Assembly (NCBI GenBank): GCA_018062305.1
Contig: JAGOSK010000007.1
Coordinates: forward strand, 1 to 34,042
From: Minisyncoccota bacterium
GTDB lineage: Bacteria; Patescibacteriota; Minisyncoccia; Phycocordibacterales; CAIZLB01
Direction: 5' to 3'
DNA: 34,042 nucleotides
Position numbers and translations under genes: made by a program. This document shows, piece after piece, positions 30,958-33,794 of the stretch. The notes under the pieces are model-generated. The model ran no database searches, had not been told where the DNA came from, and saw nothing but the letters and a program-made list of their open reading frames with translations. Numbering within the stretch: position 1 is the stretch's first letter; every line of letters starts with the position of its first letter.

Positions 30958-32244
30958 TTACACCAATGTTAGTTGTTTATCTTTCAACACCATCTTGCTC
31001 CTCAGGTGACTTAGCAACTCTCGCTTTTCATGTAGAGGTCTCTTTCTTAGAATGTGTTTCGCGTAGTTCCTAATGTCCACTTCTTTGATCTTGATTTTCT
31101 CTTTGACTTCTTTTCCGAGTACTGACTCTTGGAATTCATTGTGAGATTCTATTTCTGCCTTGATTCTGTCTTTCATACCTATCTCATCCAGTGATACGGT
31201 ATCAAGTATATTTGCTAATTGTTCTATCAAATCTTCCTCTCGAATGTGTCCACACTGACAGTACTTATCTTTGAACTTGGTGCATCCATAGTATACGTAT
31301 CTGTTCGTTGTGCCGTCTTTGAGCTTCTTGAATTTTTCATCTGCGGTTATTCCTGATCCGCAAAGTCCACAGGTGATCATCTTGGTGAATGCGAATTCCT
31401 TATCCTGTGTTCTTGTCAGGTGATCGTTACTTATCTTGTCCTGTACCTGATTGTACAAATCCTTAGTGACAATTGGTTCGTGCTTTCCGACATACCATTG
31501 TCCACTTCCTTTCGGGTATTCAAATTCGCCATAATAGAAGGTGCTTTTGAGAATTATATATACATTACTCAATGTCAGTGGTTTTCCATTTTTGGTCTTG
31601 AATCGTATATCTTCACTTAGCCATTTGAAGAGTTTTCGTCCAGACCATCCATCGTATGCGACCTTCTCATACATTTGCCTTATAACATCTGCTCTGTGCT
31701 CATCTTTCATAACTTCGCATTTACGATTTCTATCAGAGTGACTCAAATATCCAGTAGGGGGTACTGATGGCCATAAGCCCATCTCGCATCTCGCTCGTAG
31801 TCCTCGTTTTACATTCACCATCTTGTTGTCGTTCTCGAGCTTTGCTTGTGATCCCAAGATCATCAGTAAGAATTTCTCGTTTGGATTGTTTGTGAATTTC
31901 TGTCCGTAAGTACGTATCTCGTGCAGGAGCTTTTGATCCATGAGGTCTACAACTGCTCCGAGGTCTCCAGCGTTTCTTGATAGGCGATCTGGTGCCCATG
32001 TTAGGATTCCATTAAATTTGCCTTGCCTGATTTCACTGATGAGCTCGTTGTATACAGGTCTTTGCCCAACTTCTTTAGAGGAGTGTGATTCACGCTTAAT
32101 CTCCACAATTTCCAAACCTTCTCGCTCGGCGAGACTGATCATCTCCTTTACCTGCGATTCTATTGATAATGCTTGTTTGTCCTCCTGTTCCGTTGATTTA
32201 CGGGCATAGAGGCAGTATTTGACGGGAAGTACCTCTTCTGGCAC
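30958..32244 (-). CDS. Serine site-specific recombinase (resolvase/integrase family)
   Basis: 428 residues. The resolvase catalytic domain starts VKYCLYARKSTEQEDKQALS, with the nucleophilic serine in ARKS and active-site arginines in the TWAPDRLSRN motif. Next is the recombinase domain (about 150-260; PTGYLSHSD, YEKVAYDGWSGRKLFKWL, IILKSTFYYGEFEYP). A zinc-ribbon follows (CGLCGSGIT ... YYGCTKFKDKYCQCG), and a Lys/Glu-rich C-terminal helix ends the protein. This is the architecture of large serine recombinases that integrate and excise mobile DNA, though it is on the short side. GTG start (VPEEVLPVKYC). The start abuts the truncated LapA-like frame on the opposite strand, which suggests an attachment-site junction there. 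No partner directionality factor seen. Confidence 0.93.
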   Translation of the reverse strand: MPEEVLPVKYCLYARKSTEQEDKQALSIESQVKEMISLAEREGLEIVEIKRESHSSKEVGQRPVYNELISEIRQGKFNGILTWAPDRLSRNAGDLGAVVDLMDQKLLHEIRTYGQKFTNNPNEKFLLMILGSQAKLENDNKMVNVKRGLRARCEMGLWPSVPPTGYLSHSDRNRKCEVMKDEHRADVIRQMYEKVAYDGWSGRKLFKWLSEDIRFKTKNGKPLTLSNVYIILKSTFYYGEFEYPKGSGQWYVGKHEPIVTKDLYNQVQDKISNDHLTRTQDKEFAFTKMITCGLCGSGITADEKFKKLKDGTTNRYVYYGCTKFKDKYCQCGHIREEDLIEQLANILDTVSLDEIGMKDRIKAEIESHNEFQESVLGKEVKEKIKIKEVDIRNYAKHILRKRPLHEKRELLSHLRSKMVLKDKQLTLV

Positions 32245-32499: not shown

Positions 32500-32570
32500 T
32501 GAAGGGGGGGGGTACACACCTCGATATTTTTAATGTTACTGTATTCAGTTACATTAAAAATAAGGCTTGA
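32499..32570 (+). CDS. Possible 23-codon ORF starting with a G tract
   Basis: The ATG overlaps the stop of the previous frame (TAATG). It reads MKGGGTHLDIFNVTVFSYIK then NKA and stops. The segment IFNVTVFSYIKN resembles residues NFNVTEFGNIKN of the KilA-N protein downstream and is encoded by palindrome A. It may be a duplicate fragment and not a gene. Confidence 0.25.
   Translation: MKGGGTHLDIFNVTVFSYIKNKA
32504..32512 (+). repeat. G9 homopolymer tract
   Basis: Nine consecutive G in an AT-rich context, within the short frame at 32499. Prone to slippage, so either a contingency tract or an assembly error. Confidence 0.6.
32527..32560. repeat. KilA-N palindrome A (upstream)
   Basis: 15-nt arms (TTTTTAATGTTACTG and 32546-32560) pair with one mismatch around a 4-nt centre. 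Shares the core TTAATGTTA with palindromes B and C. Confidence 0.75.
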
Positions 32571-32591
32571 ATAAACGCTGTTTTTGTTAAA

Positions 32592-32623
32592 TTTTAATAT
32601 TATTGATTTCAATAACATTAAAA
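32592..32623. repeat. KilA-N palindrome B (promoter-proximal)
   Basis: 15-nt arms (TTTTAATATTATTGA and 32609-32623) with one mismatch and a 2-nt centre. It overlaps the expected -35 position of the promoter whose -10 is at 32639, a typical repressor-operator placement. Confidence 0.7.
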
Positions 32624-32638
32624 GTGTCACAATAGAGT

Positions 32639-32644
32639 TATAAT
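32639..32644 (+). promoter_or_regulatory. -10 element for the KilA-N gene
   Basis: TATAAT, 56 nt before the ATG. The surrounding 18 nt (32636-32653) are identical to those before the pilus cluster at 15148-15165. Palindrome B covers the -35 region. Confidence 0.5.
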
Positions 32645-32694
32645 TTTATCTTTATTTTAAGGAAAATTCAGCACCCAAATGCAATACTCTGGGA

Positions 32695-33552
32695 ATGAAG
32701 AAAATTAAAATAGATAATTTAGAAATTCACATATACAAACATAATGAAGACGATTACATATCTCTAACCGATATGGCGAAGTTTGGTGATACTTCTGCGA
32801 CGGGTATAGTTATAGCACATTGGCTTTCTACTAAGTACACTATCCAGTTTATGGGTGCATGGGAGCAAGCTTTCAACCCAAATTTTAATGTTACCGAATT
32901 CGGTAACATTAAAAACATGGCTGGAACAAACAGTTTTTTACTCTCCACATCAAAATGGATACAGAAAACGAACGCTGTCGGTATTCGCGCTTCCGTAGGA
33001 CGCTATGGTGGAGGAACCTTTGCACACAAGGACATCGCCTTTGAATTTGCCACATGGCTGTCACCCGAATTCAAGTTGTATCTCATAAAAGAATTCCAAA
33101 GACTCAAAAAACAAGATGAGACTAAATCATCTACGTTAGACTGGAGTGCCAAAAGAATGCTTACCAAGATTAATTATAAAATTCACACCGATTCAATAAA
33201 ACAGCATATTATTATTCCGAAAAAGCTATCAGGCAAAGATTCAATTATTCTCTATGCGACAGAAGCTGATGTACTCAATAAGGCCTTGTTTGGTATGACC
33301 GCAAAAGAATGGAGAGCGACCAATCCGAACTTAGAGGGTAATATTCGCGACTATGCAGATGTATATCAATTAGTCTGTCTTTCAAATCTTGAAAATATAA
33401 ATGCAGAGTATATACGCGCTGGTATTTCTCAAGGTGAGAGACTTTTAAAGCTCAATGAAAGTGCCATATACCAGATGAAGTCTTTACAGACAAATAGTAA
33501 TTTAATTGAGGTTTCTAATAGAAAAGGAGTTTTTAATTCTCAAATACTGTAA
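32695..33552 (+). CDS. KilA-N domain DNA-binding protein
   Basis: 285 residues. The N-terminal KilA-N domain is complete: YISLTDMAKFGD, IVIAHWLSTKYTIQFMGAWEQ, FNPNFNVTEFGNIKN, NSFLLSTSKWIQKTNAVGI, GRYGGGTFAHKDIAFEFATW and LSPEFKLYLIKEFQRLKKQ. The C-terminal part (about 150-285) is the helical region found with bacterial full-length KilA-N proteins (NKALFGMTAKEWRATNPN, GNIRDYADVYQLVCLSNLE). KilA-N domains occur in phage and large DNA virus regulators and antirepressors; here it is probably a transcriptional regulator of an accessory element. The codons for NFNVTEFGNIKN form a perfect 32-bp palindrome related to two sites upstream, suggesting autoregulation. No SD. Confidence 0.9.
   Translation: MKKIKIDNLEIHIYKHNEDDYISLTDMAKFGDTSATGIVIAHWLSTKYTIQFMGAWEQAFNPNFNVTEFGNIKNMAGTNSFLLSTSKWIQKTNAVGIRASVGRYGGGTFAHKDIAFEFATWLSPEFKLYLIKEFQRLKKQDETKSSTLDWSAKRMLTKINYKIHTDSIKQHIIIPKKLSGKDSIILYATEADVLNKALFGMTAKEWRATNPNLEGNIRDYADVYQLVCLSNLENINAEYIRAGISQGERLLKLNESAIYQMKSLQTNSNLIEVSNRKGVFNSQIL
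32883..32914. repeat. KilA-N palindrome C (inside the coding sequence)
   Basis: A perfect 32-bp palindrome, half-arm TTTTAATGTTACCGAA, in frame within the KilA-N gene and encoding part of its most conserved motif. Same core as A and B. Confidence 0.85.
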
Positions 33553-33645: not shown

Positions 33646-33714
33646 ATGCCAAAAGGAGTACAAAAGGGAAAAGAAAAAAAGAAACCAAAAACTTCAACAA
33701 AAAAGAAGAAGTAA
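33646..33714 (+). CDS. Small Lys-rich basic peptide
   Basis: 22 codons, beginning MPKGVQKGKEKKKPK and ending in four lysines; 12 of 22 residues are Lys. It has its own transcription signals: TATAAT- and TATAAA-like sequences about 70 nt upstream, a leader hairpin, and a long-stem terminator 21 nt after the stop. The ACATATG start context is the same as for csaA. Highly basic 20-30 residue proteins with an MxKG start are seen as conserved hypotheticals in several bacteria. Such peptides often bind RNA or ribosomes, but that is inference. It is short, so translation is not certain, but the bracketing signals argue for a real gene. Confidence 0.6.
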   Translation: MPKGVQKGKEKKKPKTSTKKKK

Positions 33715-33735
33715 TAGTTTTCAGCGAAGTCGTTA

Positions 33736-33794
33736 CAACTAAAAATACCCAGCGTTAACTCATCACTATATCAAGCGCTGGGTGTTTTTAGTTG
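33736..33794 (+). terminator. Long-stem bidirectional terminator
   Basis: A 19-pair stem (33736-33754 with 33776-33794, core ACCCAGCG/CGCTGGGT, one G-T) with a 21-nt loop. A5 and T5 runs in the arms. Confidence 0.88.

Follow-up and report, generated by a model that had tools for sequence, protein, structure and literature searches.

A KilA-N gene of a Minisyncoccota bacterium encodes, within its DNA-binding domain, the palindrome that its product very probably reads

The window analyzed here is the whole 34,042-nucleotide stretch of contig JAGOSK010000007.1 (assembly GCA_018062305.1, positions 1 to 34,042 of the forward strand) from a Minisyncoccota bacterium, and the subject is a gene near its end that encodes a KilA-N domain protein, together with a perfect palindrome inside its coding sequence (site C) and two related near-palindromes upstream (sites A and B). 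Comparison with homologues indicated that the protein very probably reads the palindrome encoded in its own DNA-binding domain, because a code relating helix residues to palindrome bases predicts the arm bases in held-out genes. In our judgement the best explanation, which we hold to be reasonably probable, is that the palindrome is a self-immunity tag embedded in a defence gene and copied by phages, similar to the aba element of the abortive-infection protein BstA. The features on which the argument rests are as follows.

32695 to 33552, plus strand: KilA-N domain protein of 285 amino acids (PF04383, PDC-S22)
32883 to 32914, no strand: site C, perfect 32-bp palindrome in the KilA-N coding sequence, symmetric in essentially all family members
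32800 to 32829, plus strand: codons of the predicted recognition helix (residues 36-45), in which residues 37, 38, 41, 42 and 45 covary with arm bases 8, 6, 7, 5 and 4, respectively
32890 to 32919, plus strand: codons of helix 66-75 (AlphaFold2 model), mostly encoded by site C
32528 to 32559, no strand: site A, upstream near-palindrome with half-sites TGTTACT/TGTAACT
32592 to 32623, no strand: site B, upstream near-palindrome with half-sites TATTATT/TGTTATT

The window protein showed a full-length match to the PDC-S22 model of PADLOC (E = 6e-118, residues 2-274 of 285), by which the family is flagged as a single-gene phage-defence candidate, and scored 64.2 bits against the KilA-N model PF04383 (gathering cut-off 23.8), which matched all 100 aligned members. 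Site C starts approximately 190 bp into the gene and 55 bp 3′ of the recognition-helix codons, and consists of a GAATTC centre and TTTTAA/TTAAAA flanks, both constant, with variable arms of 7 nt (TGTTACC) between them, which together encode NFNVTEFGNIKN in frame. A preliminary description of the window had reported this perfect 32-bp palindrome within the coding sequence and the two upstream sites of the same framework; both observations held, with the limits of site A adjusted from 32527-32560 to 32528-32559 (symmetry centre 32543/32544). When the half-site pattern was searched with up to 3 mismatches, only A, B and C were recovered in the window (none of 100 shuffles gave a match), and the scan of the host genome that the same description had proposed again returned these three alone. 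A looser framework search of this genome added one perfect site, with arms of a different type, on a different contig (C15:2105-2131; L566 2093-2131). This isolated palindrome is of the same design, carries TGTTATC arms, and is located in the intergenic region that follows a gene for guanylate kinase, with no KilA-N gene nearby.

Homologues were drawn from 32 of the 380 genomes of the phylum, from other genomes (80 loci, covering many phyla and an archaeal bin), and from 80 viral contigs. Each of the 149 distinct motifs has a palindrome at the same position of the gene, with symmetry at 11 or more of the 15 pairs (37 are perfect), so that homologues encoding the same residues without the symmetry were not encountered; nearly all close family members carry the site as a two-half-site palindrome. 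The mean symmetry was 13.74 of 15 pairs as against 8.88 after synonymous recoding of the same peptide, the highest mean reached in 2000 simulations being 9.28; the codon-randomised expectation raised in the preliminary description was thus exceeded, and this simulation ruled out chance or codon bias as the source of the symmetry. At other centres in the gene the best symmetry was about 6.5 pairs. The arms nevertheless differ completely from homologue to homologue (GGGGTC/GACCCC, TATGGC/GCCATA, GTTATG/CATAAC and CCCATC/GATGGG, among others): there is hardly any variation in pairs 1-3 and 11-16, whereas pairs 4-10 covary, and the encoded amino acids track the DNA symmetry, with N (AAT) facing I (ATT), K (AAA) facing F (TTT) and N (AAC) facing V (GTT). 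The variation of residues 66, 67, 70 and 71 with the arms accordingly follows from the palindrome. Among mismatches counted without the K/R pair, G-U (41) and A-C (43) were about equally frequent, and this lack of a G-U excess places the constraint on the DNA and not on the RNA. A truncated relative at L028 (1400-1900, reverse strand) lacks exactly the 24-bp palindrome core and reads NPGFRMEAG in place of NPxFNxxEFxxIKNEAG, with a palindrome of another type just upstream.

The variable arms are matched by variation elsewhere in the protein. When the motif itself was set aside, correlation with the arm bases was strongest at columns 42, 38, 45 and 41 and was also high at 37 and 36. These residues line one face of the helix predicted at approximately residues 36-45 (AlphaFold2 model, mean predicted local distance difference test score 87.7), and their linear order corresponds to that of arm positions 4 to 8 and 10. 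The pairings R45-C4 (100 of 107), N42-T5 (82 of 89), D42-G5 (12 of 12) and K41-G7 (28 of 29) appear chemically sensible, C4 being equivalent to a G on the other strand in the case of R45. In pairs of proteins matched for overall identity, those with the same arm type shared residues 36, 37, 38 and 41 far more often (excess 0.63-0.67, against a column mean of 0 and a standard deviation of 0.15). The code was then tried on 53 additional, held-out genes (52 with the palindrome), all sharing less than 85 percent identity with the training set. It predicted the bases at positions 5, 6, 7 and 8 in 48, 43, 44 and 36 of the 53 genes (91, 81, 83 and 68 percent), as compared with 35, 33, 24 and 25 for the most common base, and no control column beat it; position 4 carries the same base in 50 of the 53 genes, and its assignment to residue 45 is the one suggested by the covariation above. 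From this covariation we strongly infer that the protein physically binds its own palindrome. In addition, relatives with 88 percent identity and different palindromes differed almost only in residues 23-122, and therefore the KilA-N domain and its embedded site have been exchanged together, with the C-terminal part left in place. Selection for symmetry at the DNA level, the reader-site code and modular exchange are thus supported by calculation, as is the occurrence of sites in viruses without the gene.

To locate the latter, viral contigs were scanned for AA-N5-TCGAATTCGA-N5-TT, and the figures given here refer to the matches listed and not to population frequencies. At least 76 sites were found outside KilA-N genes. 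All five variable pairs were symmetric in 20 of the 76 listed (3 of 80 at a control centre), and 78 of 152 half-sites also occur in the repertoire of the KilA-N genes (control, 3 of 160). Even the non-symmetric sites use known half-sites (47 of 94, versus 3 of 152), and are hybrids of two of them. The strongly symmetric viral sites were intergenic in 27 of 29 cases, and no family gene was present in 49 of the 50 viral records searched, an absence that may be only apparent where records are fragments. In gene-less viruses the sites lie in settings as different as a capsid operon, the flank of an integrase gene and the region after a dUTPase gene, and in L244 two sites are tiled 24 bp apart (9240 and 9264). 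Streptococcus satellite phages encode a version of the KilA-N gene with ACTGGTC arms, and an ACTGGTC site occupies an intergenic gap in S. suis phages; such sites also lie between genes in phages of S. dysgalactiae and S. urinalis, and the site of a Staphylococcus warneri phage is almost the same as that within the gene of Staphylococcus phage EW. Viral sites that match gene sites are perhaps passwords against the defence. Adjacent viral site pairs with three or four different half-sites were seen in L244 (9240 and 9264) and L238 (9261 and 9301). Capture of coding fragments by phages was considered as well; it was suggestive in Streptococcus phage Javan523, but the remnant score barely exceeded the control, and it was not relied upon.

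Sites were also found in front of family genes. Within 700 bp upstream, 17 of the 172 genes checked had non-coding sites, 33 in total, and of the 66 half-sites none was identical to that of the gene's own palindrome and 32 had an exact counterpart among the half-sites of the other family genes. Because these upstream sites are mostly non-self, they argue against simple autoregulation. Some form arrays: L006 (2513-2930) contains five different palindromes and L018 (1340-1475) four to five, the latter partly tiled at exactly 24 bp with TTTAA ends in common. The window is the nearest exception, with site A differing from the site C arm by 1 mismatch in its left half and 2 in its right half, and matching an S45/H42 reader no worse than site C does. 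The likeness between A and C extends beyond the palindrome over 57 nt (81 percent; 32528-32584 versus 32883-32939), and since the right half of A shares an identical stretch of 18 nt with that of the family member L005, site A appears to be a piece of coding sequence from a related KilA-N gene, reaching to 32584. The earlier suggestion that A and B are copies of the coding segment therefore stands in part, for site A. That site B covers the −35 region, as had also been proposed, could not be established: the promoter-like element noted was the following perfect TATAAT, but a −35 at 17 bp spacing from it would be weak and overlap site B, and a promoter scan listed no promoter at this position.

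32639 to 32644, plus strand: TATAAT, possible −10 of the KilA-N gene, identified by eye

These observations bear on several other explanations. The protein might bind the site in its own gene, and in the window A and B as well, as an intragenic operator that limits its own expression without any role in immunity. The reader-site code would fit such an operator, as would window site A with its near-self arms and its good fit to S45/H42; however, most family genes have no upstream site, none of the upstream half-sites is the gene's own, and sites occur at varied places in gene-less viruses, so that we regard this explanation as unlikely. The preliminary description had put forward binding of the protein to all three sites as autoregulation. 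Of this, recognition of the site in its own motif receives strong support from the synonymous-codon test, the helix covariation and the held-out prediction, while autoregulation as a general role is not, given the 0 of 66 own half-sites and the gene-less phages with sites. Alternatively, the phage sites could be what a satellite or prophage weapon attacks in competitors, the in-gene copy being an operator. The Streptococcus satellite phages with the ACTGGTC version of the gene and the S. suis phages with ACTGGTC sites would suit an attacker and its targets, but a harmful target is expected to be lost, whereas the symmetric intergenic sites in many unrelated viruses, the hybrids and the 24-bp tiling look gained and maintained; targeting is in our opinion improbable.

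Still less probable, to the point of being very doubtful, is that the upstream palindromes are silent cassettes which replace the expressed motif through gene conversion. Arrays of differing palindromes and close relatives with different arm types are what such storage might leave behind, yet a cassette of 24-30 bp would not include the covarying residues, which are upstream in helix 36-45; a swap of the palindrome alone would therefore break the match, and the exchanges seen span the whole KilA-N domain. A perfect palindrome also folds as RNA, and template switching, which corrects quasi-palindromes, can perfect palindromes; an mRNA hairpin or a mutational by-product might thus account for the symmetry. 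A hairpin is at odds with the missing G-U excess, both are at odds with the intergenic position of the viral sites, and neither would lead one to expect a protein-DNA code located in a separate helix. An Rfam search gave no match, and we give these two possibilities hardly any weight.

With the palindrome as an embedded self-immunity tag, which remains our preferred reading, the PDC-S22 KilA-N protein would recognise AA-N7-GAATTC-N7-TT with TTTTAA/TTAAAA flanks via helix 36-45, and the reader and its in-frame cognate site, being in the same domain, would be inherited and exchanged as one module. The protein would most likely act against competing phages or mobile elements, a defence activity that, like the immunity role, we infer, and by analogy with aba and BstA the embedded site would exempt the DNA that carries it. 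Phages and rival elements with copies, hybrids or tandem arrays of other members' sites would gain immunity, and specificities would therefore have diversified. The symmetric intergenic sites, hybrids and tilings in gene-less phages fit acquired exemptions better than they fit operators or targets. In its broader form, to which we give slightly better than even chances, the proposal is of a self-specifying recognition module: the domain's codons would hold the operator that its helix reads, specificity and password would evolve together, and phages of many hosts would collect passwords, including hybrids and tiled arrays, to pass multiple defences.

Function is the weakest step of this model, and several points weigh against it. 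The window's own combination of S45 with C4 is unusual (2 of 107 such cases), the covariation was computed on sequences without a tree, and the possible incompleteness of viral records has been mentioned. In the host genome itself, a lone intergenic site lies on a contig that carries ordinary chromosomal genes, a location that immunity of mobile elements does not obviously explain. In the literature searched, PDC-S22 was named by a single paper, and no experiment on phage defence or site immunity was found for it. The family hidden Markov model gave no match above noise to BstA of BTP1, the bstA locus has no comparable palindrome, and aba-like repeats were not found in this family; membership of BstA in the family is excluded by this lack of homology and of a palindrome.

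The KilA-N gene is adjoined by a recombinase gene, listed here as context.

30958 to 32244, minus strand: large serine recombinase (phage integrase type)

Its best NCBIfam relative is CcrB and its PHROG assignment is integrase, and it may be the sign of an integrated element that extends beyond the contig at its other end. It was rejected as a recurring partner, as a relative occurs in the flanks of only 4 of 190 loci, the window included. Downstream of the KilA-N gene, the interval 33646-33794 contains a short lysine-rich open reading frame followed by a 19-bp inverted repeat (33736-33754 and 33776-33794). A PDB sequence search with the window protein gave nothing useful, and a Foldseek search of PDB with the model of 32695-33549 returned no KilA-N or APSES structure; its best match, DdrC of Deinococcus radiodurans (E = 3e-3), is a weak hint of structural similarity.

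If the preferred reading is true, it becomes clear how a mobile element stays unharmed by the anti-phage protein that it carries and how the link between protein and exemption is never lost, an uncharacterised defence candidate of many phyla becomes a tractable system, and a phage genome could predict which of these defences the phage should escape. Under the same reading, five residues would correspond to five bases in a protein-DNA code that can be read and directly tested.

As for known systems, PADLOC describes the same family, its PDC-S22 entry being that of a candidate protein only, and literature searches, made without subscription journals and preprints, returned no description of the palindrome, the reader-site code or the viral sites. 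KilA-N phage regulators (PHROG 2657, PF04383) share the domain and are annotated as transcriptional regulators, a generic annotation that mentions neither a cognate site nor an intragenic operator. Autoregulated repressors can have intragenic operators within the coding sequence. The site described here is likewise inside a coding sequence, but it lies within the reader's own DNA-binding domain and, unlike those operators, diversifies with the recognition helix across phyla. Among characterised systems, we found the same logic only in BstA, a KilA-N-like abortive-infection protein from which a cognate DNA element overlapping its own gene, aba, gives exemption (Owen et al. 2021, PMC8585504); aba works as DNA, comprises 63 bp at the start of the gene with direct CCCGCC repeats, and is distinct for each BstA variant (PMC8585504). 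Both systems thus combine a KilA-N-like DNA-binding protein with a cognate element overlapping its own gene, and in both each variant has its own element, as indicated here by computed covariation and held-out genes; the difference is that the element is here a palindrome within the domain, which is also present in viruses without the gene.
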